Positions 43,264 to 56,350 of a stretch of 56,350 bases of DNA are shown in pieces (the first letter of the stretch is position 1; every line of letters begins with the position of its first letter). Below the pieces are notes generated by a model. The model was not told where the DNA came from. It searched no databases and worked only from the letters and a program-made list of their open reading frames with translations. The position numbers were made by a program, and so were the translations under genes. Origin of the DNA: Peptococcaceae bacterium BRH_c8a (GTDB lineage: Bacteria > Bacillota > Desulfotomaculia > Desulfotomaculales > Desulfallaceae); the NCBI GenBank assembly GCA_000961575.1, contig LADP01000023.1, positions 1 to 56,350 of the forward strand. The letters are read 5' to 3'.

Positions 43264-43833
43264 ATGACCTCGAAAAACAATGGTGTCACTGGCAGACGCC
43301 TGGAAATTAACACAGTTACACGCAAACTGTCTCATTACGAGGGTGGACGCCTGAACAAAGAATATCCCGTGGCGGTAGGTAAGCCGTCTACCCCCACACC
43401 GCCCGGAAACTTCAAGATAGTTAACAAGATCTTGCACCCCGGCGGCATTTTAGGCACCCGGTGGATGGGACTTTCTATACCCGGCGGGAATTACGGTATT
43501 CACGGCACCAGCAACCCTTCTTCAATTGGGACAGCTGCATCCTTGGGCTGCATCCGCATGTATAACCATCACGTGGAGGAGCTGTTTGGGCAAATCTCCA
43601 TTGGCACAGCGGTGCATATTTATAACCGGTCCGTTCAAACTACAAACCCCGGTTCGTTTACCCCTGCTCCGGGGCCGCCGTTAAACGGCGGAAAAACTTA
43701 TATCGTTAAGCCCGGCGATACTCTCTGGAACATATCCCGCAAGTTTAATGTATCGCTGGATGAACTGATAGCCGCCAACAACTTGACCGACCCTAATCAG
43801 CTAAACCCGGGACAGGTGTTGGTGATACCCTGA
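43264..43833 (+). CDS. L,D-transpeptidase (YkuD) with C-terminal LysM
   Basis: This 189-aa protein has a YkuD catalytic domain (residues ~10-122) with IHGTSNPSSIGTAASLGCIRM, holding the catalytic His and Cys, and a LysM peptidoglycan-binding domain at ~143-189 (YIVKPGDTLWNISRKFNVSL, NPGQVLVIP). The order YkuD-LysM is the reverse of B. subtilis YkuD. No signal peptide is seen, as in YkuD itself, a spore protein; it may act in the spore wall. GAAAGGAG precedes ATG 43264. Confidence 0.92.
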   Translation: MTSKNNGVTGRRLEINTVTRKLSHYEGGRLNKEYPVAVGKPSTPTPPGNFKIVNKILHPGGILGTRWMGLSIPGGNYGIHGTSNPSSIGTAASLGCIRMYNHHVEELFGQISIGTAVHIYNRSVQTTNPGSFTPAPGPPLNGGKTYIVKPGDTLWNISRKFNVSLDELIAANNLTDPNQLNPGQVLVIP

Positions 43834-45208: not shown

Positions 45209-45436
45209 TTATATGTGTGGGGAATAGCCTAGTGAATCTAACGTGCGCCGGATATATTCTCCGCTAATCACTGCCGGGTCATAATCAACAGTAACCGCTC
45301 TTTGCTCAAGAGAAACAACCACTTCCCTGACCCCGTCCACCTGGATCAAGTTGTGTTCAATTTCCTTCCCGCCTTCAACACCTCGTAAACCGCCCACCCG
45401 GATGGTTTCCCGGGCCCCGTTATATTCACCGCTCAC
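45209..45436 (-). CDS. HMA-like domain protein lacking the CxxC metal site
   Basis: This 75-aa protein has the HMA (heavy-metal-associated) beta-alpha-beta-beta-alpha-beta pattern: ETIRVGGLRGVEGGKEIEHNL, IQVDGVREVVVSLEQRAVTVDYDP, IRRTLDSLGYSPHI. The position of the usual GMxCxxC is GGLRGVE, so no Cys is present and metal binding by the classical site is excluded. The start is GTG 45436, with GGAGG seven bases upstream. It follows the 45462-46049 gene by 25 bp and is probably its operon partner. Confidence 0.75.
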   Translation of the reverse strand: MSGEYNGARETIRVGGLRGVEGGKEIEHNLIQVDGVREVVVSLEQRAVTVDYDPAVISGEYIRRTLDSLGYSPHI

Positions 45437-45461
45437 ATGTGCACCTCCGGGGTTTTTTTTG

Positions 45462-46049
45462 TTATCCTCCCCCGAATTTCCATTCCAATACTCCGCCATC
45501 ACTAGAGAAACGTTCCTGAACTTCGTTTTTGTCCTTAACCACATCCTCATTCTTTTTACCTTTGGCGTTTTTAATATCAGCCGGTTTGTTTTTGTAGTCC
45601 AAGTTAATTTCCCGCTGTACAGGCTTCGGTGATGGAACGGTATTTTCACCTGCTCCGGGCGGCCTGACCGGAGCCGCTTGACCCTGAGTGCCCATGCCCA
45701 TAAGTGGGCCCAGAAGACTTAAGATACCGGTCAGGTCGTTTTGACCTCCACCTTGCATTCCACCCAGCAGCCCAAGCAGCGCGGCTGGATTAATCTGCCC
45801 ACCCGGCTTACCACCGGGCCCGCCGCCCATGCCGGCCGCTGCTATAGCCAGCAGGGGTAACAGTGATTGTAAATTGCTGCTGCCTGTAGACGATGCACTG
45901 GTGCCGCCCCGGTTAAGTGCGTTAACCAGGCCCATCAAATTCAACAGGCTGAGCATAATCAACAGCGAATCATTGTCAACATCGTGCTCGGCCCGGTAGT
46001 CCAGCAGGCGAAAAAGGGTCTGTTCAATCCTTTCACGCTCGTTTTCCAT
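45462..46049 (-). CDS. Unknown protein with H..DND..NLMG N-terminal domain and Gly-rich middle
   Basis: This 195-aa protein begins with a helical module (residues ~5-50: TLFRLLDYRAEHDVDNDSLL, MLSLLNLMGLVNAL) shared with the 46619-46882 product. A low-complexity Gly/Leu/Met region follows (AAAGMGGGPGGKPGGQINP; LLGLLGGMQGGGQND), then a charged tail (KNAKGKKNEDVVKDKNE). I do not recognise the family. AAAGGAG precedes ATG 46049. It is probably cotranscribed with the HMA-like gene. Repeated LLxLLG units suggest self-assembly, which is inference. Confidence 0.75.
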   Translation of the reverse strand: MENERERIEQTLFRLLDYRAEHDVDNDSLLIMLSLLNLMGLVNALNRGGTSASSTGSSNLQSLLPLLAIAAAGMGGGPGGKPGGQINPAALLGLLGGMQGGGQNDLTGILSLLGPLMGMGTQGQAAPVRPPGAGENTVPSPKPVQREINLDYKNKPADIKNAKGKKNEDVVKDKNEVQERFSSDGGVLEWKFGGG

Positions 46050-46176
46050 ATGGACACTCCTTTAGAGAGAATATAACTTTTTCCATAATGTAACAGTCTT
46101 TGCTCTGTGCACATAAGATGTTGTAGAGTTGAAAATTGGTAAATGCCTGATTATGTGATTAGAAGGAGGTTTAAAT

Positions 46177-46596
46177 TTGCGTTCTTCAACGAGGTACCCT
46201 AATGACCCGTTCAATATTTTTTTGGTGCTGGTTTTATTAATCCTGGGGACAGGGTTTCGAGGGGCAGGCGTGGTTAGTTTTACCAATCAACCGGCCCAAG
46301 ACCCCGCACCGCAACCCCCGGCGTTAGAACCAGACGTTCAAGAACACCATAATGACCCACAGGATGATGCACTTGAGCATTCCGAAATACCCCAGATCTC
46401 AAGCGACGGCCTGGAGGCAAACCAAGATGAGCAGGAAAGCATAAGCCCAGATTCAGATGATGATGCAGTTACCGAAAAAGGAGAAACACCGGCGAGCCTT
46501 ATAATTACCGACACGACCAAAGAAAATCCGCCGATGACACTCCCGGCTGACAAGTTAATTAAAGAATGGCGCTGCTGGCCGGAGGGTAAAAAATAA
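46177..46596 (+). CDS. Small membrane-anchored acidic protein of unknown function
   Basis: This 139-aa protein is the only plus-strand gene in the 45-50 kb cluster and lies between the two paralogues. It starts at TTG 46177, with a perfect AGAAGGAGG seven bases upstream. After a short basic start (RSSTRYPNDPFN) it has one hydrophobic helix (IFLVLVLLILGTGF), then a long acidic, Gln/Glu/Asp-rich region (residues 35-110; no Cys until near the end) and TLPADKLIKEWRCWPEGKK. The N-terminal helix resembles small sporulation membrane proteins (YjcZ-like), but this is weak. Confidence 0.65.
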   Translation: MRSSTRYPNDPFNIFLVLVLLILGTGFRGAGVVSFTNQPAQDPAPQPPALEPDVQEHHNDPQDDALEHSEIPQISSDGLEANQDEQESISPDSDDDAVTEKGETPASLIITDTTKENPPMTLPADKLIKEWRCWPEGKK

Positions 46597-46618
46597 CCTG
46601 CAACTATTACACTTTGGT

Positions 46619-46882
46619 TTATTTACCCTCTTCTTCTGACTGATGCCCACCGCCCCGCGGGCCGGCGAACATATTCATAAAGGGTACTTTTTCAGGCGCG
46701 GCCCGCCGGGCGCCGCTTTCTTTTTTGCCCAACGCAGCCCTGTCCTCCATCAGGTTAATAATACCCATTAGATTAATCAGGCCAAGCAGCACCATGAAAC
46801 CGTCATTGTCCAGGTTATGTTTGTTTTTTACGTCCAACAGATCCACCAGCATCCGCTCAAGGTTTTTATTTTCTCCTGGCAT
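46619..46882 (-). CDS. Unknown protein, paralogue of the 45462-46049 N-terminal domain
   Basis: This 87-aa protein has LERMLVDLLDVKNKHNLDND, then MVLLGLINLMGIINLMEDRA, which aligns with the N-terminus of the 45462-46049 product (LLD...H..DND...L.L.NLMG..N). The C-terminus is charged and Gly-rich (FAGPRGGGHQSEEEGK). ATG 46882 is 11 bases after GGAG; GTG 46894 is possible. It follows the YbaB-like gene by 18 bp. Function is unknown; the domain may be a short helical hairpin for oligomerisation. Confidence 0.75.
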   Translation of the reverse strand: MPGENKNLERMLVDLLDVKNKHNLDNDGFMVLLGLINLMGIINLMEDRAALGKKESGARRAAPEKVPFMNMFAGPRGGGHQSEEEGK

Positions 46883-46900
46883 AGGCGTCACCACTCCGCG

Positions 46901-47197
46901 CTACAACAGCCCCGGCACGAAAGGAATGTTCATCCCGCCGGTCATTTTAGACAGTTCTTCCCGCACCATCTTCTTAGATTCCCGCATCCCCTCGTTAAAA
47001 GCATCGGCTGCCAGCCGGGCCAGTTCCGCCGGGTTTTGTATCAGTTCTGGTTTAAAGAATATCTGCACTACCTCCTGGTTGCCGTTCATGGTCAGCTGTA
47101 CCGCCCCTTCCCCGGCACTAACTTTTACGGTCATTACTTTTAACTGCTCTTGCAACTGTTTAACCATGTTGAACATGTTGTCCATATTTTCCATCAT
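46901..47197 (-). CDS. YbaB/EbfC-like protein (divergent)
   Basis: This 98-aa protein has the size and pattern of the YbaB/EbfC nucleoid-associated family: an N-terminal amphipathic helix (MVKQLQEQLKVMTVKVSAGE), central strands (GAVQLTMNGNQEVVQIFFKP), a C-terminal helix (ADAFNEGMRESKKMVREEL) and the closing SKMTGGMNIPFVPGLL. It is a second, diverged member; the canonical ybaB usually sits next to dnaX and recR, which are absent here. RBS GGGGGG precedes ATG 47197. It is the first gene of an apparent operon with the 46619 gene. Confidence 0.75.
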   Translation of the reverse strand: MMENMDNMFNMVKQLQEQLKVMTVKVSAGEGAVQLTMNGNQEVVQIFFKPELIQNPAELARLAADAFNEGMRESKKMVREELSKMTGGMNIPFVPGLL

Positions 47198-47284
47198 TTA
47201 GGCTTCCCCCCAAATTTTAATTCACGCTCTAAAACAAATATATGTGCCTAAAAAGTTTGCTAAACCCAAAACGTTATCGGTTAT

Positions 47285-47313
47285 AAAAAAAGAGATGGCA
47301 TTTAAACCATCTC
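47285..47313 (-). terminator. Rho-independent terminator after the coat-protein operon
   Basis: On the minus strand GAGATGG-TTTAAATG-CCATCTC is followed by seven U residues, downstream of the 47344 gene. Confidence 0.85.
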
Positions 47314-47343
47314 CTGCCATTCCCCAAACAACAATTTTAATTT

Positions 47344-48438
47344 TTAACCGTAATACTCGTCATAATAATCTTCCCTGGCCCTGATGCATTCCAGCATTAC
47401 ATTATCGATAATCACTGCACTGGTGTTCAGCAAATTGGGATCAAAGGTGAAACGAACCAAAACTTCCCGGGCTTCCGGAGGAGCCGCGGCGTTGATGCAC
47501 AGCCTGGTTGTGTTATCAGGAATCTGGGCCGCTGTGTAAGACTGGGCCGTGTATTCTATCTGGTTACCGAACCGGTCAAAGAAAATCAACTCGGCCGTTA
47601 GGGTGAATGATGCCGTTCCGCCCACTATGGTGGTCACATCGGGAACCTCCGTGACGTCAAAGCACAGGCGGTAAGTACCGGTGGGCGCTATGTTTTCCCT
47701 GACGGTTTGGAACAGGGAGGCTGTTTCATTGGGGATAACCCCCAGCTGAGCGCCGCCGTTGGCCCGGACTACGTTGCTGGCACCCCAATAAATGGGGGTG
47801 AAATCTGTGGCCCACGATTCAAGATTACCGTCTCTGAGGATATTAACCCCTCTTACGCATCTGCGGTCAAGCCGCGGGCAAACCTGGACAAAGACTTGCC
47901 TTTCTTCAACAACTTTAATGCTGAAGATTAATACACCGGTTTGCTGCAACCTGGAACCTCTCCTGAGTTCCCAACGCATGTCGATTTTTTTGTTGTGCAG
48001 TTGGACGAACACGTCTTCTTCGTTGACTACAGGCTGAGCTTCAGACAGGGTTATATCTTTACTGAAGGGTATATCCTCACCGACATGTTTTACGTGATCG
48101 TTCTTGTCAACATAGTAAATTTGCTTGTGCAAAACACCATCAACCAAAACTTTTTTGACTACCGGCTGGCGGCGGTCATTATAATTCCAACCAAACCTTT
48201 CCCAGCCTTCTTGTTCAATAACACTGATCCAACGGTCGCCGTTTTCGTGAACGAAGACAGGCCTGGCGTCAAATTCATCCAAACGGGCGTCGATATGATC
48301 AACTTTTTGCGCCAGCTCGGGTAAAGTGGCGACATTGTCTATAACGACCTGGACCTCCTCTTCAGCCAGAACCACCGGAACCTTAATCTTAACACACAAG
48401 ACATTGTCCGGCTCGCTGTAAAAATATTGGATTGGCAT
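47344..48438 (-). CDS. SPOCS-domain (DUF3794) protein with C-terminal beta-sandwich region
   Basis: This 364-aa protein has an SPOCS/DUF3794 domain at residues ~85-190 (VVKKVLVDGVLHKQIYYVDKN; VGEDIPFSKDITL; VFVQLHNKKIDMRWEL), the type found in coat and cortex proteins such as SpoVID. Residues ~205-350 (GNLESWATDFTPIYWG; TYRLCFDVTEV; VLVRFTFDPNL; AVIIDNVMLECI) look like a carbohydrate-binding-type beta-sandwich. It ends with an acidic, Tyr-rich tail (REDYYDEYYG). AGGAGG precedes ATG 48438, 24 bp after the three-SPOCS gene, so one transcript is likely. Probable spore surface protein. Confidence 0.75.
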   Translation of the reverse strand: MPIQYFYSEPDNVLCVKIKVPVVLAEEEVQVVIDNVATLPELAQKVDHIDARLDEFDARPVFVHENGDRWISVIEQEGWERFGWNYNDRRQPVVKKVLVDGVLHKQIYYVDKNDHVKHVGEDIPFSKDITLSEAQPVVNEEDVFVQLHNKKIDMRWELRRGSRLQQTGVLIFSIKVVEERQVFVQVCPRLDRRCVRGVNILRDGNLESWATDFTPIYWGASNVVRANGGAQLGVIPNETASLFQTVRENIAPTGTYRLCFDVTEVPDVTTIVGGTASFTLTAELIFFDRFGNQIEYTAQSYTAAQIPDNTTRLCINAAAPPEAREVLVRFTFDPNLLNTSAVIIDNVMLECIRAREDYYDEYYG

Positions 48439-48462: not shown

Positions 48463-50004
48463 TTAACCTTTGGCACCGCACTGTATTCTAATAACCTGAC
48501 CAACCTGCAAGTTGTTTGGGTTTAACCCGGGATTAAGCTGCAGGATTCTATTAACGGTGGTGCTGTAGCGCTGAGCCAACTCAAATAAGGTATCTCCTGA
48601 TTTAATTGTGTAGTTAATGATCTCACCGGGAGTGCAAACTTCGTCTTCGTCTTCGTCCGGTTCGGTTACCACGTCAACGCAAACTTCACGCCGCATTGCC
48701 TCAGTAACCCGGGCCCTGACTTTTATCACAGCCTCAACATTAACATCGCAATTGTCGGGCTCGGCATTGATGTATTCCACTACGGGTTTAACATCTACAT
48801 CCATGCCATTTGTGGCTCCTCTAATCTCCACAAAGGTGCGGAAATTTAATTGTTGGTGCATGGCGTGTACCGCCTGGTCCTTTTCTGCGGACACGTAAAC
48901 TATCTTGACATCCACCTGACCGCGGATAATGACCTTGTTTTGAATTACCTTAACATCGGTAACCTCGATTTCCTCGACCGAAACATTAACTATTTTTTCG
49001 GGACACGGTTTGGCCTGCGGGGTTTCAAAGGTTTCCCTAACTACCACTTGAGAGCTATCTTCACCAATGAGCTGCTCAACGTTTAACTCCACAGTTTCCA
49101 TTGTGGCACCGGCGCAGTTGGTGACCACCCTAACTTCCCGGGGCTCGGTAACCATAGCGTCCAGCTTGAGTACGCAGGTCGCCTCAAAGAAGGGGTCGCC
49201 TTTAATCTCAACATCGCAGTTTTCTACCATCGCCTTCACGTTGACATCCATCTCCGGCTCAGCGCCGTCCACTTCGATAAAATCCGTAAACTTGATGGTG
49301 TGGTGCATGTCATGGACAGATTGTTCGGGAACCGCCCCCACGTACATTATCTGCAGCGTGAGTTCGCCATCCACAATCACCTTATTGGCTACAATACGGG
49401 CCTCAGTGATGGTGACAGTGGAGTCCACATCCAGTATTTTCTCCGGTTCCGGTTTTTCCATCGGCTCTTCAAACTCTTCGCTAACGATTACCTGGGAAGT
49501 CCCCCGCCCCACTACATCATTGATGTGAATGGTGTCATACTCTGCCTGCATGTTGTCATCAACAGCAGTCAGCACTTCCACTTCCCGGGCCTCGGTAACC
49601 TTGGCGCTCACTTGAAGCACCGCTGTGACATCGAATTTCCTGGGATCCCTGGCGCTGGGAGTGATTTTAATATCCTCCACCAGCACATCCACTTCGACGT
49701 CCATGTCAGGCAGCGCCCCAGGTAAATCAACGAATCCGGTAAAGGGAATCTGGCCGTGAAAATGATGCACAGACTGAGACGGTTCAAAGGCCACATATAC
49801 AACCTGCACCGTGAGCATTCCTTCAATAACCGCCTTGTCCGGCAGAAGTCTCGTATCTTTTATACTGGCCGTCTTCTCTGTGGATATAATTTGTTCTAAG
49901 TCGGGCTTAGGATCGGGTACGGTGATAGTGCCGCGAACTACGACTTGCCGGGTGTCTTCGCTGACGACCTGGTTAACGGTGATTCTTTGCTTGGCATTGG
50001 CCAC
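48463..50004 (-). CDS. Triple SPOCS (DUF3794) protein with C-terminal LysM
   Basis: This 513-aa protein has three SPOCS repeats of about 145 residues. Each shows VSEDTRQVVVRGTI-type strands, VVYVAFEPSQSVHHFHGQIPF-type centres and a EAREVEV/EPREVRV motif (about 1-140, 150-290, 300-440). A LysM follows (~462-509: YTIKSGDTLFELAQRYSTTV; NPNNLQVGQVIRI). SPOCS-LysM proteins such as SpoVID and related coat-morphogenesis proteins attach to the cortex/coat. The start is GTG 50004 with AAAGGAGG seven bases upstream; the frame is open to 50163 without support. A sigma-K-like promoter lies at 50036-50064. Confidence 0.88.
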   Translation of the reverse strand: MANAKQRITVNQVVSEDTRQVVVRGTITVPDPKPDLEQIISTEKTASIKDTRLLPDKAVIEGMLTVQVVYVAFEPSQSVHHFHGQIPFTGFVDLPGALPDMDVEVDVLVEDIKITPSARDPRKFDVTAVLQVSAKVTEAREVEVLTAVDDNMQAEYDTIHINDVVGRGTSQVIVSEEFEEPMEKPEPEKILDVDSTVTITEARIVANKVIVDGELTLQIMYVGAVPEQSVHDMHHTIKFTDFIEVDGAEPEMDVNVKAMVENCDVEIKGDPFFEATCVLKLDAMVTEPREVRVVTNCAGATMETVELNVEQLIGEDSSQVVVRETFETPQAKPCPEKIVNVSVEEIEVTDVKVIQNKVIIRGQVDVKIVYVSAEKDQAVHAMHQQLNFRTFVEIRGATNGMDVDVKPVVEYINAEPDNCDVNVEAVIKVRARVTEAMRREVCVDVVTEPDEDEDEVCTPGEIINYTIKSGDTLFELAQRYSTTVNRILQLNPGLNPNNLQVGQVIRIQCGAKG

Positions 50005-50035
50005 GCGATTTCCTCCTTTCAACAGATTTCTATAA

Positions 50036-50064
50036 TAATATATGAGGGACTGTCTAAAATGTGC
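50036..50064 (-). promoter_or_regulatory. Sigma-K-like promoter of the SPOCS coat genes
   Basis: On the minus strand AC (50062-50061), 16 bases, CATATATTA (50044-50036): agrees fully with the sigma-K consensus AC-N16-CATANNNTA. It lies about 30 nt upstream of the GTG start, which would give a short leader containing AAAGGAGG. Late mother-cell expression of a coat protein is expected. Confidence 0.55.
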
Positions 50065-50089
50065 AGGAGGTGTGTAAGGTGAAATAAAG

Positions 50090-50136
50090 AAAGGCGCGGC
50101 TACAATTGGTACCTTTAACCCACGCCTTTTTATTTT
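50090..50136. terminator. Bidirectional hairpin terminator
   Basis: GGCGCGG (50093-50099) and CCACGCC (50120-50126) pair with a G-U; TTTTTATTTT follows on the plus strand and a U-rich run on the minus strand. It separates the SPOCS promoter from the 50404-50796 gene. Confidence 0.55.
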
Positions 50137-50403
50137 AGAGTTTATGGCCCAGGACTTGGACATATTTACAGAAAGGCGTTGGGGGCCAATACCCTTGCCT
50201 GTCCACAGCCTAACAAACAGGGTACTTAATGGTTAACTTTTACCATATTTATGTCGATTCCACAGATATTCTTGTTTCCAATACCAAGTGACCCCAATAG
50301 CCATTACCGATATTAACCCTTTTCCCTGCCTGGCAAGCCTATGTAAATTTATTGCTTGGAAAAGTGTTTATTGCCTCAAAATTTGTTTCTAACTTTTAAT
50401 TTG
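50137..50403. other. Intergenic region without recognised gene
   Basis: The 267-bp stretch has a TGGACAGGCAAGGGTATTGG-like segment on the minus strand near 50180-50205 that resembles the GGACAGGC repeats. Otherwise I see no repeat, promoter or reading frame of note. Confidence 0.4.
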
Positions 50404-50796
50404 TTAGCCCGGAGAGTACAAAACCGCTCCCATGCCTTCCGCTAATGCCAGGCAGGCCAGGGTTCCATCTGGTTCGTTAAAAAAACTGGTAAGAATAAAC
50501 ATGTTCCCTTTAAGTCCCCGCTTAAATCTTTGCAGCATCAATTCATCCAGGTTGCTCAAAGTTTCGATGGCCATTCCCGGACCCCGTACCACCAGGGTAA
50601 ATCGGCCGTCTTTCTGTTTGATAAAACGCAGGCTGCACCGCTGGTGGTCCTTCTTTTCCCTGGCTAGTTTATCAATCAACCGGAGATAACTCCTGGTCAC
50701 CTTTAAAGCGTCTTCTTTACAGGGCAGCAGGGGTCCAATGGCCGGTATATCGTTAAGAAAAGTTAAGGCCACATCATCAGTATGGTATGATTTCAC
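50404..50796 (-). CDS. Unknown soluble protein
   Basis: This 130-aa protein has no family I recognise. It is an alpha/beta protein with a basic middle (YLRLIDKLAREKKDHQRCSL), then LVVRGPGMAIETLSNLDELM and GNMFILTSFFNEPDGTLACL. ATG does not occur at the right place: GTG 50796 is 10 bases after GGAGG, and TTG 50805 would be one base after it. The start codon lies inside a parS-like palindrome (50789-50804). It lacks signal peptide and membrane segments. Confidence 0.6.
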   Translation of the reverse strand: MKSYHTDDVALTFLNDIPAIGPLLPCKEDALKVTRSYLRLIDKLAREKKDHQRCSLRFIKQKDGRFTLVVRGPGMAIETLSNLDELMLQRFKRGLKGNMFILTSFFNEPDGTLACLALAEGMGAVLYSPG

Positions 50797-50804
50797 GTGA
50801 AACA
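50789..50804. promoter_or_regulatory. parS-like site (Spo0J/ParB binding)
   Basis: GATTTCACGTGAAACA agrees at 14 of 16 positions with the Firmicute parS consensus TGTTTCACGTGAAACA and contains the perfect 12-bp palindrome TTTCACGTGAAA. parS sites cluster near oriC, in agreement with the B. subtilis-like origin-proximal gene order of this window. It overlaps the start of the 50404-50796 gene. Confidence 0.65.
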
Positions 50805-50820
50805 AACCTCCCCTGGTTGT

Positions 50821-51039: not shown

Positions 51040-51626
51040 TTAAAACTCAATATCCAACAAATCCATAACATTTTGGATGCGATTAATAATACAATGCGTA
51101 TCTGAGCCGGCAAATAAAAGCCCTACCACATTATTATTTTCATCTACAACCAACGACCCACTATCACCGGGCTTGCACAGCACATCAGCCACCACCTGGT
51201 CGCTGAACCAACCCGATTCCTCGTCGGACAGATCAACTTTTACGGTCACTCCGGTGGCAGATACGTCCCCTGAAGTAAGCCCGCTGGTCCGGCCACTCTT
51301 GCGCACCGTCATGCCATCCCGCAGTTCCCCGACACCCGACAGTTTGCCGATCTCGATAATATCATCATTGATTAAATTTGGGCTTACCGGTCTGGCCACT
51401 GCGCAATCAACAATGTTATATTGGTTTAGATTTTTATAAAAACGCAATTCGTAAGCCGGTTTGATTATTTTGAGCAAACGGTTGGTCAGGCCGGCCACTC
51501 CCGCAGCCACCGGACAATCAGCTTGCTGAGTACCCCGGTGTAGAGGAATAAATCGTTCCAGTTCTGCAACTTTATCTGCACTTGTTCCGCCGTCGTAAGG
51601 GCCGGGTTGTGACCCTTTATTGAAAA
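51040..51626 (-). pseudogene. 5'-truncated trypsin-like serine protease
   Basis: The frame encodes the C-terminal ~195 residues of a trypsin-like peptidase: QPGPYDGGTSADKVAELERFIPLHRG, then VDCAVARPVSP, SGRTSGLTSG, and the catalytic Ser in CKPGDSGSLVVDENNNVVGLL. The N-terminal half with the catalytic His and Asp is missing. The coding sequence begins at NKGSQPGP, immediately beside a palindromic repeat (51630-51665) containing an in-frame TGA. There is no ribosome site at the break; an internal GTG (51510) could start a shorter product. I judge it a remnant left by a deletion or repeat insertion. Confidence 0.8.
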
Positions 51627-51673
51627 AAAGGAGTCAGGCCATGCAAAATTGCAAGGCCTGACTCCTTTTTTTT
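51623..51673. repeat. GGAGTCAGGCC hairpin with A/T-tracts
   Basis: GGAGTCAGGCC (51630-51640) and GGCCTGACTCC (51655-51665) enclose TGCAA-AA-TTGCA; A7 and T8 flank the palindrome. It would also work as a bidirectional terminator, for the minus-strand nitroreductase transcript. The ends match the 10697-10772 repeat except for GGAG/GGGG. Confidence 0.85.
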
Positions 51674-51689
51674 GAATAGTTCTTATTCC

Positions 51690-52256
51690 TTAAAGAGCAA
51701 GGATTATTTCTTCTAGCGAACGCTTAGGTACATGGTGTACCCCATCCTGATCGCGCCAGTACTTGATATCTCCTTGCATCTTTTCAACTACCACTTCCTC
51801 TACTGGTTTACCCAAGGCGATAACGGCCAGTATCTCGCACTGTTCAGGAATACCCAGTTTTTTTCTTAAACGATCCCTGTTAACCGAAGCTAATATGCAA
51901 CCGCCCAGGCCCATGTGCACGGCACCTAGCAGCATGCTCTGGCAGGCTATACCTAAATCCACATGGCAGTAAGCACTGCCTATCCCTGTATCATTCAGCA
52001 CAACAATATATGCCGCCGGTCTTTCCCCCTCGGCAGGACCTTTCCAGTCCTTTAGGTAAGCGGCCCAGGCCAGGGTTTCAAATATAACGGCGTTTTTTTG
52101 CGTTTCGCAGGATAGTATGTACTTTAGTGGTTGCTTATTGGCAGCGGAAGCCGATAAGCGGGCCAGATTAACCAGACCTTCCAGAGTTTTTCGTTCTATT
52201 GAATGACTCTGTGCAAATCTACGGTAGCTGCGGTTTTTCAAAACCAGTTCCAGCAT
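51690..52256 (-). CDS. Nitroreductase-family protein
   Basis: This 188-aa protein is an FMN-dependent nitroreductase-like flavoprotein: NRSYRRFAQSHSIERKTLEGL with the FMN-binding Arg pair, LARLSASAANKQPLKYIL, DLGIACQSMLLGAVHMGLGGC and ILAVIALGKPVEEVV. It likely reduces nitro or quinone compounds with NAD(P)H; the substrate is not defined. It is 25 bp after the FAH-family gene and probably in its operon. Its 3' end is followed by a palindromic terminator. Confidence 0.92.
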   Translation of the reverse strand: MLELVLKNRSYRRFAQSHSIERKTLEGLVNLARLSASAANKQPLKYILSCETQKNAVIFETLAWAAYLKDWKGPAEGERPAAYIVVLNDTGIGSAYCHVDLGIACQSMLLGAVHMGLGGCILASVNRDRLRKKLGIPEQCEILAVIALGKPVEEVVVEKMQGDIKYWRDQDGVHHVPKRSLEEIILAL

Positions 52257-52281
52257 TTCATCAACCCCCGTTTATTTATTT

Positions 52282-53163
52282 TTATACGTTGCACTTACAA
52301 TCTTCAACCGGGTTAACAAGTGCTTCAAACCCATCAATAACGCACTCCACCACATCGCCATGTTTTATCACTGCAGCACCCGGTGTACCTGTGGAAATAA
52401 TATCCCCCGGCAACAGGGTCATAACCTTGGAATGAAATGATATAAGAAAATAAGGTGGAAATGTCATATTAGCAATTACATTCTGCCTATGCACCTGCCC
52501 GTTAAGCACAGTTGAAACCTTCAAGGACAACAGATCGCCAATTTCTTCAGGCGTCACCAAGACCGGGCCGAAACTAAAAAAGGTATCAAAACTCTTGGAT
52601 CTGGTAAGGTACCTGGGGTTTTTACGCAGGATGTCTTCGGCAGTCATATCAATAATTGTAGTAAACCCAGCGATATACTCTGGTACATCGTATTCCTCTA
52701 CGTTACGGCAAATTTTGCCTATAACTACGCCCAGTTCCCCTTCCGCTGTAGTCCTGGCCGACTGCAAAGGTATTTTTATCGGGTCTCCGGGACCGATAAT
52801 GGTGGTATCCGGTTTCATAAAGCTGGCGGGTTCGGTCTCGGGTGATTTTTCCGCCAGGTCAGCTGCATGATCTGCGTAATTCAAACCAATACCCCATATT
52901 TTGCGCGGCTGGCGGAATAATGGGCCCAAACGAGCCTCGACCAGAGGGATAGCCTGCGTCCCCAAGTCCTGCAGTTGAACCCTTCCTTCCCGGCGGTACC
53001 AGTGATTCATTTTCTCCAATTGCCCCGATGCAATTATGTCAAAGATATCTACAGGGTAATTTTTACCCCACTGATCATTAATCAGTGACACGGGAAACAG
53101 CTTGTCATCCACCAGCACGGCTGCAGTTTCAACGTTGTCTTGCCATATTGTCGCCAGGCGCAT
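52282..53163 (-). CDS. Fumarylacetoacetate hydrolase (FAH) family protein
   Basis: This 293-aa protein has the FAH-fold catalytic region of acylpyruvases and 2-oxo-hept-3-ene-dioate hydratase/isomerases: WGIGLNYADHAADLAEK, SFMKPDTTIIGPGDPI, AEGELGVVIGKICRN (metal-binding Glu) and TLLPGDIISTGTPGA. The N-terminal ~70 residues are the usual variable domain. It probably cleaves or decarboxylates a beta-dicarbonyl acid. GGGGGTTACTGC precedes ATG 53163. Pairs with the nitroreductase. Confidence 0.93.
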   Translation of the reverse strand: MRLATIWQDNVETAAVLVDDKLFPVSLINDQWGKNYPVDIFDIIASGQLEKMNHWYRREGRVQLQDLGTQAIPLVEARLGPLFRQPRKIWGIGLNYADHAADLAEKSPETEPASFMKPDTTIIGPGDPIKIPLQSARTTAEGELGVVIGKICRNVEEYDVPEYIAGFTTIIDMTAEDILRKNPRYLTRSKSFDTFFSFGPVLVTPEEIGDLLSLKVSTVLNGQVHRQNVIANMTFPPYFLISFHSKVMTLLPGDIISTGTPGAAVIKHGDVVECVIDGFEALVNPVEDCKCNV

Positions 53164-53277
53164 GCAGTAACCCCCAACTAATTTATTTTAAACTATATTT
53201 ATGTTTTAATAACATAAAATTGGACGTCCAAAATTATTGTCCTGCCACCAGAGACAAAAATATCGAACTATTAATGT

Positions 53278-54921
53278 TTATGGTATTATAGGCTCCAGGT
53301 TGTAGACAATTATTAAACTGTGTTCGGCTTCACCCTGTTTCTTTATCTCAAGGTTGCTAAGCATAGGACATAAGTCGTTGTCTTTATTTAGCTGTTCACT
53401 CATAATATCGCCGTGCTCCAAAACAAATATTTTTTTTACGAACATTTCCAGAAATAATCTGTCTATATCAGCATCGTTTAGCAGTTCCAGTGCCAGATGA
53501 TCGATAACTTTTAAACATTGTTGCTGACAGTTGCCTTCTGCAACGGCTAAGGCATTTTCATACTGCTGCATCAGGATGGTTATTTCCCGCTGCAGCGTGA
53601 TTTTTGTTTCCAAAAACAAAGCCTCTGAGATATAACCTCGTATTTTATCCATATAAATTGTCTTTAACTGCCGCTGTCTATTTTCTATTTCCCGGGCCAG
53701 CTTTTCAGGCCGCTTGCTTTCATCCCGGGCGGCCAATTCATTTTCATAACGTTCGTTCAGCTTATCGCGAAACGGTACCCCGGCTCCCATTTCCAGCACA
53801 TCCCGGCGGATCAAGCCAACCAGCTTCGCTTCTGTAACGTGGTGGCTTGAACATCCCGGGCGCCCTTGCCGGTTATACCGACCGCATACGTACCCTCCCG
53901 GTCGGCCGACTTTCCTGCGGTATACATGCCGGGAGCCACAGGCCGCACAGAAAATCAGCCCGGTGAAAAGGTGTGCGCCTGGCGACAGGGCATTTTTACG
54001 ACCGGCACCTACCAACCATCGTTTTCTCCGTACCCGCTGGGCCAGCTCAAAGGTATCCCTATTTACAATGGGTTCGTGTGTTCCGGGCACCACAATCCAC
54101 TTTTCATTAGGCACACGCCTAATCTTGCGCGATTTAAACGAAACTTTTTCTCTCACGCCCTGTACTGTATCACCACAGTAAACCCGGTTAGTGATAATAC
54201 GCCGAATATGCTGCCCTTCCCATTGCCCGGCAGCAGGAGCCCGGGCATAACCCTTGTCCTGGCCGGGAGTGGGTACCCCCAGACGCTGTACGAAACCGGC
54301 CAAGGCCCGGTAGCCCCAACCCTGGATGTAGAGTGTAAACAATTCATTGATAAGCTCCCTGTATCTTTCATCAACCTCCAGTTTATTTTTACAACAGCCG
54401 GATTTACGATATCCAAAGGGCGGCCGGCCCAAATACTCACCATTTTGCATCTTTTTTTTCAAGTTAGCCCGTACCTTTTTGGATATATCACGGGCATAAT
54501 ATTCATTAACCCAGGTTCTAATACCTATCGTATCGTCGTCATCATGAAAACTGTCGTAACCGTCACCAAGTGAAATCAGACGCACATTCTTTTCCTGCAG
54601 GTAATCAAGAAAAGTTAATGTCTCCCCGTTATTACGACCCAGCCTTGATAGATCCTTAACCACCAAGGCATCCACCCGACCACAGTTAATATCGCCGACC
54701 ATGCGCACCAGTCCCGGACGGTCAAAGCAGGTACCTGAGATGTCACTGTCCTCGTAGATTATGGGCTCACCCAGACCCTGTGACTTAACGTATTCCGTAA
54801 GAATGCTGCGTTGAGTATTCAGGCTATCATCCCGCTCACCATGTTCATTAACGCTAAGTCTAGCGTAAACAGCCACTTTTACTACCCCGCAATCAATATC
54901 ACATTCTTTTTTTTCGGCCAT
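53278..54921 (-). CDS. Large serine recombinase
   Basis: This 547-aa protein has an N-terminal resolvase domain (VAVYARLSVNEHGERDDSLN with the catalytic Ser; IYEDSDISGTCFDRPGLVRM; ALVVKDLSRLGRN). A recombinase domain follows (RPPFGYRK; AGQWEGQHIRRIITNRVYCG), a zinc ribbon (FCAACGSRHVYRRK, CGRYNRQGRPGC) and a coiled coil near the C-terminus (ENRQRQLKTIYMDKIRGYIS). Such proteins integrate and excise phages, ICEs or skin-like elements. ATG 54921 with AAGGTG is the start. No att core or cargo is evident in the window. Confidence 0.93.
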   Translation of the reverse strand: MAEKKECDIDCGVVKVAVYARLSVNEHGERDDSLNTQRSILTEYVKSQGLGEPIIYEDSDISGTCFDRPGLVRMVGDINCGRVDALVVKDLSRLGRNNGETLTFLDYLQEKNVRLISLGDGYDSFHDDDDTIGIRTWVNEYYARDISKKVRANLKKKMQNGEYLGRPPFGYRKSGCCKNKLEVDERYRELINELFTLYIQGWGYRALAGFVQRLGVPTPGQDKGYARAPAAGQWEGQHIRRIITNRVYCGDTVQGVREKVSFKSRKIRRVPNEKWIVVPGTHEPIVNRDTFELAQRVRRKRWLVGAGRKNALSPGAHLFTGLIFCAACGSRHVYRRKVGRPGGYVCGRYNRQGRPGCSSHHVTEAKLVGLIRRDVLEMGAGVPFRDKLNERYENELAARDESKRPEKLAREIENRQRQLKTIYMDKIRGYISEALFLETKITLQREITILMQQYENALAVAEGNCQQQCLKVIDHLALELLNDADIDRLFLEMFVKKIFVLEHGDIMSEQLNKDNDLCPMLSNLEIKKQGEAEHSLIIVYNLEPIIP

Positions 54922-54931
54922 TTCAATCACC

Positions 54932-55120
54932 TTAGTCCTTATTTTTACGCTCCGGCGTCTGCAATTGACTTTGCAAACTTTCTGCATCCAGCAAGTTTTT
55001 TAGCTTACGGTACATCAGGAACACTATCATTTCGCTAATCTGTTGCCCTCCGGCCAGCACGGCAATATGTTCTTGTTTTTTACGCACATGATTTGTACCT
55101 GAAGGTTGTCGCAAAATCAA
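54932..55120 (-). CDS. Small protein upstream of the serine recombinase
   Basis: A 62-aa open frame starts at TTG 55120 (or TTG 55114) after AGGGGGTG. It is basic and helical (TNHVRKKQEHIAVLAGGQQI; SEMIVFLMYRKLKNLLDAE) and ends ten bases before the recombinase ATG, so translation may be coupled. No family is recognised. It could be a small regulatory partner, as small genes often sit before recombinases. Confidence 0.45.
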   Translation of the reverse strand: MILRQPSGTNHVRKKQEHIAVLAGGQQISEMIVFLMYRKLKNLLDAESLQSQLQTPERKNKD

Positions 55121-55177
55121 ACACCCCCTGCAACAAGCATATGCCTGACCAGAACGACCTATATTTTGTCCATGGCA

Positions 55178-55216
55178 TAAAAAAAGCGCGCTCATTGGAG
55201 TTCCCTCTGCGCGCGC
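55178..55216. terminator. GCGCGC-stem hairpin
   Basis: AAAAAAAGCGCGC (55178-55190) and GCGCGCGC (55208-55215), as in the two hairpins near 50.8-51.0 kb. On the minus strand it ends the small 55291-55437 gene's transcript. Confidence 0.65.
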
Positions 55217-55290
55217 ATTTGATATTTTAAACCTTATATAATTCTTAAAGTAAAAAATACCCGGATCCACCGGGTTTAATCGCAATGTTT

Positions 55291-55437
55291 TCACCCCAAT
55301 TTGCCCAGTAACAGTAACCGCATGTACTCTGCTTTTTTTAGCCGCCTCTTTAACATCCGCTTTTCTCTGGCGTCCAGACAGCAGTATATCTGCTGCTCCA
55401 AGTAGTGGATTTCCTTTTCCAGCTTATGCACAGGCAT
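55291..55437 (-). CDS. Very small basic helical protein
   Basis: A 48-aa frame starts at ATG 55437 with AGAGGTG eight bases before. It is almost all helical and basic (MPVHKLEKEIHYLEQQIYCC; LDAREKRMLKRRLKKAEYMR). Family unknown; it resembles a short coiled-coil or regulator fragment. It lies between the transglutaminase-like gene and the recombinase. Confidence 0.5.
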   Translation of the reverse strand: MPVHKLEKEIHYLEQQIYCCLDAREKRMLKRRLKKAEYMRLLLLGKLG

Positions 55438-55487
55438 ATTAACACCTCTGTCTTCCAACGGTACACCCCCTGGAACGGTTTTGCAAA

Positions 55488-56350
55488 CTATGTATCCAAC
55501 CAATCGGAACTGCTCTCGTCCACCACCTTGCCATTGCTAAGCACCTTAACTATTAAACGGGTGTGGGTATCATAAGGATATTTTATATTCAAGGTATACT
55601 GCTCCTCACCCCTTACCCCCACGATGCGCGGTTGACTGTAGGCCTGGTCGTAAACCTTACCGTTTCCGGCATCAAACGCCGCATAGACCACAGTATTCTC
55701 CGCAGGCGCAGTACCTTCATTTTTAACCACCACTGTAACTTTATACCACAGACCGGTGCCCTGCCCCTCCCAGTTATGGTTAATTACCGGGCGGGGGATC
55801 AGTGGCAGCACCCTGGCGTGCGCCCCCTTGTATTCTACTGGAATTTTTCCGATCTGCCAGCCTGTACCCGTAGTTTCAACGTAATAATACCTGGAACCTT
55901 CATAATCCCAGTAAGCACCGGGAAGGTTCTCGGTACCCTTGACACCTACCGCCATATGATCCGGCAGAGCCAACAGCACCACCCCATAACCCATTTCGCG
56001 AAGAATAGAAGCCAGCAGAATGCTGGTATCCTCGCAATCACCGCCTCGGTCAACCAACGTTTCTAATGGATATCTGGGATATTCGTCGTACCCTGTATTA
56101 ACATTGTCGGGCACATAGTCTAGGTTTTGCACAAATGAAACCGCAAAATCAACCATTTCGTAATCGGATAAATTGTGTTGCCGCGCAGCTTCCTTAAAAC
56201 GATCCACCAAAGATGTAATATAATAGTCATCCAGTTGGTTGGTAACATAAACTGAATAGTCATCAGTTTGGGGCCTGGGCAGGCTTTGAAAGTATCCATA
56301 ATGATTATTCTGAATGCTAATGGACCACGACCACTCGTAACCACCGTATT
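55488..56350 (-). CDS. Transglutaminase-like cysteine protease domain protein (start outside window)
   Basis: The minus-strand frame is open to the right edge, adding at least 47 residues (SIQNNHYGYFQSLPRPQTDD...) to the segment from 56210. A transglutaminase-like core is seen: VDFAVSFVQNLDYVPD, LVDRGGDCEDTSILLASIL (catalytic Cys), LPDHMAVGV (His) and YYVETTGTGWQIGKIP (Asp-equivalent region). A C-terminal beta domain follows (WYKVTVVVKNEGTAPAENTVV). It is probably an exported or cell-surface protein; the signal would be outside the window. Stop at 55488-55490. Confidence 0.82.
   Translation of the reverse strand, partial: YGGYEWSWSISIQNNHYGYFQSLPRPQTDDYSVYVTNQLDDYYITSLVDRFKEAARQHNLSDYEMVDFAVSFVQNLDYVPDNVNTGYDEYPRYPLETLVDRGGDCEDTSILLASILREMGYGVVLLALPDHMAVGVKGTENLPGAYWDYEGSRYYYVETTGTGWQIGKIPVEYKGAHARVLPLIPRPVINHNWEGQGTGLWYKVTVVVKNEGTAPAENTVVYAAFDAGNGKVYDQAYSQPRIVGVRGEEQYTLNIKYPYDTHTRLIVKVLSNGKVVDESSSDWLDT

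Follow-up and report, generated by a model that had tools for sequence, protein, structure and literature searches.

A locus in Peptococcaceae bacterium BRH_c8a raises the question of what five small genes, three of which fall outside the known families, are doing beside genes for SipL-like proteins. The window analyzed was a stretch of 56,350 nucleotides, and an open reading frame check placed the five genes where a preliminary description of this DNA had put them. On the minus strand two genes with SPOCS domains are followed, in this order, by YbaB2, ModB, ModA and HMA, and the gap between ModB and ModA holds the plus-strand gene AcidM, which is divergent from ModA.

Layout and coding status of the locus

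The SipL-like neighbor (48463-50163, minus strand) matched the SPOCS family PF12673 over three stretches with 221.6 bits and also contained LysM, and the second neighbor (47344-48438, minus strand) contained one SPOCS domain (28 bits, cut-off 23.6). These are the immediate same-strand neighbors of the five-gene set, so that the adjacency to coat-type genes proposed earlier was borne out in the window. A Pfam scan found no SPOCS domain in any of the five proteins themselves. The gap between the SPOCS genes and YbaB2 contained a terminator-like hairpin with a 10-pair stem and a T run (47290-47315, minus strand); the terminator scan returned 4 hairpin sites against 3.2 expected, so that the assignment relies on how long the stem is and on similar hairpins noted by eye in relatives. 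A 133-residue protein (50404-50805, minus strand) was conserved beside the SPOCS-LysM gene in many loci of the order and had no Pfam or NCBIfam match.

All five genes look to be coding, since dN/dS between the window and its nearest relative (L033) was below 1 in each case: 0.07 for both ModB and YbaB2, 0.16 for ModA, 0.21 for HMA and 0.58 for AcidM. Non-synonymous changes were thus fewer than synonymous changes throughout, least clearly for AcidM, which is weakly constrained.

A helical module common to ModA and ModB

When the window's own genome was searched with ModA (45462-46049, minus strand) at E ≤ 10, the query returned itself and ModB (46619-46882, minus strand) only, the latter with E 1.2e-8 and 29% identity. 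The two proteins are therefore homologous and have a module in common, as had been proposed, which spans 45909-46037 in ModA and 46742-46870 in the shorter paralogue ModB (minus strand; rows 1 and 2 of alignment A1). The module was predicted to fold as a helical hairpin (helices at residues 2-22 and 26-47) with mean pLDDT values of 75-89 over the first 40 residues. Beyond the hairpin short helices were predicted with low confidence, which in ModA were hydrophobic and lay within Gly-rich linkers, and with overall means of 60.5 for ModA and 66.5 for a distant homologue (L088) the hairpin was the sole usable part of the models. The preliminary description had taken H..DND...NLMG as the signature of the module; across 42 module sequences the H and DND did not belong to the invariant part, N33 and L34 alone were nearly invariant, and conservation was centered on LSLxNLxGI.

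In homologues of ModA (alignment A2) the module is followed by a Leu/Gly-rich middle and a C-terminal peptide with W. Many C-termini within the order read GEVLKWKFGT, LKWDPRLG or similar, and a W peptide was also seen in two AcidM tails, LKWDF in L037 and LIKEW in the window. It is a guess from these short strings that the peptide may be a docking motif common to ModA and AcidM.

ModA, ModB and AcidM had no curated match in Pfam, NCBIfam or PHROGs other than a sub-cut-off OAD_gamma match for AcidM (E 0.09), and a scan of 28 ModA homologues produced two single weak matches (E 0.026 and 0.051). The three proteins thus lie outside the families of these collections, and the module was not traced to any known family, phage and coat proteins among them, in the same collections or in phage records. 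A relative in the PDB was also sought, and the best match (E 0.73) was disregarded. A phage origin was rejected after no PHROG was found for seven proteins and a tblastn search of phage records, with ModA as the sole query, gave nothing at E ≤ 0.1.

YbaB2, HMA and AcidM

YbaB2 (46901-47197, minus strand) scored above the cut-offs of both PF02575 (74.5 bits, cut-off 25.5) and TIGR00103 (54 bits, cut-off 49.45), and its nearest solved structures were YbaB proteins. The genome carries two YbaB copies, the canonical one lying elsewhere on the same contig, which confirms that YbaB2 is a second, divergent protein of the YbaB/EbfC type. It has the domain and the length of these nucleoid-associated proteins and differs from them in being a second, faster evolving copy in a spore-gene context: the canonical context of YbaB genes is dnaX-recR, whereas YbaB2 adjoins SPOCS genes. 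In a tree of 69 YbaB sequences one branch separated second copies from 21 canonical sequences with support of 79/62, the bootstrap being unsettled, and the second copies had the long branches of faster evolution. The median net charge was -4 for 21 canonical sequences and -1.5 for 48 second copies, a difference that is not decisive on DNA binding. Two YbaB-like genes following ModA were seen in three members of the order (L051, L055, L060), and these could encode a heteromeric YbaB pair.

The 75-residue HMA protein (45209-45436, minus strand) was matched by PF00403 with 34.6 bits (cut-off 24.8), and the CxxC metal ligand was absent from all 23 sequences inspected (window and 22 homologues), in agreement with the earlier reading of an HMA fold lacking CxxC. 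Read from the sequence, its start is more likely the GTG at 45436, which is preceded by GGAGGTG. By sequence profile it has the same fold as the HMA domains of copper chaperones and ATPases, but a VGGL segment and an EIEHNLIQ-like motif take the place of CxxC.

AcidM (46177-46596, plus strand) contained one hydrophobic segment near the N-terminus (Kyte-Doolittle value 2.17) and carried a net charge of -16, consistent with the acidic membrane protein described before on the opposite strand; its membrane location is a prediction, and the segment was marginal in several homologues. By eye, AcidM-like opposite-strand ORFs were present in 17 examined ModB-ModA or ModA-ModA gaps. The survey took in four further loci: L033 and L034 also had such ORFs, and the gaps of L035 and L038 were too short.

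A second unnamed family of small proteins, termed pf here, was noticed at more distant loci (L100-L119 and L146-L185; for example L102:9548-9949, L155:5493-5849 and L161:6745-7095). Its members contain LLxSLKPFLSPKGQ and, when complete, a NPFTLFLILILLILS membrane segment, often with an upstream sigma-K-like site, CACC-N16-CATA. No Pfam or NCBIfam family was found for five scanned members, three of them pf proteins and two from the AcidM position. The pf profile matched two ORFs in the AcidM position (E 0.003 and 0.009); orthology of pf and AcidM is only suggested by this, because the short membrane signature is all that they have in common.

Distribution of the module and its neighbors

Matches to ModA at E ≤ 0.1 were obtained in 37 of 41 genomes, its own included. 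A syntenic module locus was present in 35 of 40 relatives, L068 and L069 being left out as weak tail-only matches with no syntenic match, and 25 of the 35 had two module ORFs. At phylum level the module profile found 90 of 398 genomes (E ≤ 0.01), a count that retains two probably false members, G411 (a 712-residue frame) and G416 (368 residues). Distant loci were counted as 59 of 60, as the module ORF of L101 was partly masked, and some of them were cut by contig ends.

The preliminary description had called for a profile search for co-occurrence of the module with the YbaB-like gene, and such a gene was found near the module in most loci. Within the order it lay no more than 1.5 kb from the module in 30 of 35 loci, and the protease-like gene s4 (31 loci) and the SPOCS-LysM gene (30 loci) lay within 6 kb; HMA homologues were present in 22. 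Of the 59 distant loci, 36 had the YbaB gene within 1.5 kb of the module and 40 had it within 4.5 kb, 40 had the small membrane protein pf within 1.5 kb, and in 56 at least one of the two (YbaB at 4.5 kb, pf at 1.5 kb) accompanied the module. Five of these loci (L102, L105, L111, L112, L114) had supplied the sequences for the pf profile, and with them excluded pf was found in 35 of 54; the YbaB profile was likewise built from members of counted loci. The neighbors are therefore co-conserved with the module across 35 order and 59 distant loci.

At least two YbaB genes were present in 57 of the 90 module genomes vs. 16 of 308 without the module (Fisher 8e-31, ignoring relatedness). A second YbaB was not found in the other 33, which include all 11 module-bearing f31 genomes. 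SpoIVA was present in 87 of the 90, the remaining three genomes being 61-75% complete. Among 356 good genomes, 77 of the 307 that have SpoIVA carried the module, as against 0 of the 49 that lack SpoIVA (Fisher 3e-6). The tallies against SpoIVA and YbaB were counted by hand from genome lists before testing, and since the genomes are related, these p-values, like the motif expectations given below, serve as guides only. At the sensitivity used, most spore-formers were without the module (249 of 336 SpoIVA genomes). Spore genes are frequent among the neighbors, SipL-like SPOCS genes in the window and sleB-ypeB elsewhere, although at 23 of the 59 distant loci the surrounding 6 kb contained no homologue of SleB, YpeB, s4 or SPOCS. 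The link of the set to spore formation is well supported.

Upstream motifs

Motif expectations were derived from 60 rounds of shuffling in which base composition only was kept. In the window AcidM is preceded by a sigma-K-like promoter consisting of AAC, 17 bases and CATAAGATG (46092-46120, plus strand), and in 11 of 14 genomes (1.15 expected) AcidM had the corresponding motif AC-N16/17-CATAnnnT in front of it at the expected distance. This motif was also found upstream of distant pf ORFs (21 of 47, 1.3 expected), s4 (16 of 31, 0.6 expected, and 9 of 26, 0.75 expected) and YbaB-like genes of the order (12 of 33, 0.85 expected) and of distant loci (6 of 41, 1.3 expected). A sigma-E/K-type -10 element, CATATATTT (47236-47244, minus strand), precedes YbaB2 and recurred at the expected distance in 16 of 16 family members; the window has no clear -35. 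Sigma-E-type -10 sites preceded YbaB-like genes in 15 of 33 cases in the order (0.85 expected) and 1 of 41 at distant loci (1.3 expected), and module genes in 13 of 61 distant cases (1.5 expected) and 6 of 60 in the order (1.6 expected). HMA genes had no motif sites upstream, the window showed no promoter for ModA, and a sigma-70 scan was uninformative (4 sites vs. 2.5 expected).

SPOCS-LysM genes, which are expected sigma-E targets, had each of the two motif types in 11 of 31 cases. In C. difficile, according to passages of one study, sigma-E promoters precede sipL and spoIVA, and the sigma-E and sigma-K -10 elements are similar, with ATA or AC in the -35 (PMC3789822). Among the controls, sleB had neither sigma-E nor sigma-K types and had sigma-G-type sites in 5 of 32 cases (0.3 expected), ispE likewise had neither of the former and a sigma-G-type site in 1 of 25 (0.27 expected), and YdcZ had a sigma-E-type site in 1 of 29 (0.6 expected). 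No sigma-G-type match was found upstream of the YbaB-like, module, pf or AcidM genes.

Because these upstream motifs are of sigma-E/sigma-K type, the set appears to be turned on in the mother cell and not in the forespore. Where location is concerned, the earlier suggestion of a forespore- or coat-associated assembly, itself a putative role, is thus supported in its coat part, by the SPOCS/SipL adjacency and the restriction to SpoIVA genomes, but not in its forespore part, given mother-cell-type motifs and no sigma-G-type sites. A YkuD L,D-transpeptidase gene with LysM was also noted in the window (43264-43833, plus strand); it is probably another mother-cell gene, since its homologues in the order had sigma-E-type -10 sites (9 of 26, 1.2 expected).

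An apparent intervening element in s4

The s4 gene encodes a protease-like protein with sub-cut-off trypsin-like matches, and its C-terminal part lies at 51040-51609 of the window. Of 36 sequences, 24 had an s4 gene of nearly full length, 4 gave no s4 match, and the remaining 8 (window, L034, L037, L042, L044, L046, L061 and L064) had only part of the gene or had it split near residue 145. Relatives of a window serine recombinase (53278-54987), 50-59% identical, were present at the same 8 loci, and at three other loci the recombinase matches were only 23-26% identical. At 7 of the 8 split or partial loci no more than 45 bases separated the end of the recombinase gene from the s4 C-terminal part; in the window the distance was 1.7 kb. 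The s4 N-terminal part was found in the window's genome (contig C33, 56925-57434) and in G005, G007 and G008, and not in the stretches examined of G004, G036 and G039; the G002 contig starts close to the recombinase.

The sequence CAACCCGGC was present at both junctions in the window's genome and in G005, and also in an intact relative (L033); G008 had 8 bases of this sequence, and G007 only CCCGGC. An element of about 5.4 kb is thereby outlined, from 51601 to 56350 of the window and on to about 56999 of contig C33 (L208:1601-6999), which encodes a nitroreductase, an FAA-hydrolase, the large serine recombinase and a copper-amine-oxidase-N/transglutaminase-like protein. It resembles the sigK skin element and has the look of an intervening element of that type, putatively excised, in what is probably a sporulation gene.

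Discussion

The reading that we favor, with confidence that is about evenly balanced, is that the products form a complex of the mother cell, located at the outer membrane of the forespore and the base of the coat and working much as the SpoIVA-SipL-SpoVQ interface does. YbaB2 and ModB would be made while sigma-E or sigma-K is active, probably together with ModA and HMA, and AcidM would be made under sigma-K. AcidM would then be a single-pass, acidic-tailed protein of the outer forespore membrane, and AcidM (or pf) the anchor; ModA and ModB may form an oligomeric adaptor, with the YbaB2 dimer and the HMA domain as structural partners built on reused folds. Next to SpoIVA and SipL, the whole would help to hold in place or organize either the coat base or the interface of cortex and coat. 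Coding status, breadth, co-localization, the confinement to SpoIVA genomes and the motif types are computed results, from which membrane location, complex formation and the adaptor role are inferred. Counting against this reading are the distant loci with no spore gene nearby, the 33 module genomes with a single YbaB or none, the scarcity of sigma-E-type sites at module genes of the order, the many SpoIVA genomes without the module and the weak constraint on AcidM. A broader evolutionary reading, which we put forward only tentatively, is that the YbaB and HMA folds gave up their original roles and were recruited, together with a Leu/Gly-rich adaptor and a bitopic anchoring protein, into a spore-envelope complex of the mother cell that many families among the spore-forming relatives now share.

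The retention of the whole PF02575 domain, structural neighbors that are YbaB proteins and the position of the second copies on one side of a tree branch, as in a long-lived specialized paralogue, would also suit a YbaB2 that is still a DNA-binding nucleoid protein, specialized for the mother cell and with ModA and ModB as its adaptors, for example in tethering the mother-cell chromosome to the membrane or tuning late gene expression. We think this unlikely, as the second copies evolve faster and the neighbors are envelope, cortex-lysis and membrane genes and not DNA genes. Those cortex-lysis neighbors suggest in turn that the set might stabilize or position SleB-YpeB in the spore and so act in germination: homologues of both were encoded within 6 kb at 30 of the 59 distant loci, the representative YpeB scoring above its curated cut-off and the representative SleB above that of PF07486 but not TIGR02869. 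They were near none of the 35 order loci, however. Moreover, the motifs of sleB are the reverse of those of the YbaB-like, module and pf genes, and the products would therefore be made in different cells, which leaves a germination role quite improbable. The order locus does belong to a chromosomal block that is conserved in general and includes ispE, glmU and prs, and unrelated small genes with no common function could be carried along in it by chance. Against this, the pairing of YbaB with the module recurs in other neighborhoods and the second YbaB tracks the module across 398 genomes, and we regard chance clustering as very unlikely.

The mother-cell complex that we favor has its closest counterpart in C. 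difficile, where SpoVQ (CD3457) is described, in passages of PMC8265636, as a sporulation-induced bitopic protein that binds SipL and SpoIVA, links coat and cortex and is specific to Peptostreptococcaceae. AcidM is likened to it by description, being predicted to be bitopic, encoded beside SipL-like genes and preceded by a mother-cell-type promoter; the family restriction of SpoVQ is a point of difference. For Moorella spores, a passage of PMC8745062 reports SpoIVA and no equivalent of SipL, SafA or CotE. No title or abstract on a sporulation YbaB or on this gene set was found in a literature search whose scope left out most subscription journals.

Outside Bacillus and C. difficile little is known of coat and cortex-coat assembly, and the co-conserved, unnamed genes with mother-cell-type motifs described here are direct targets for deletion and localization. 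The set also suggests what the second YbaB of many spore-formers, so far unexplained, may do.
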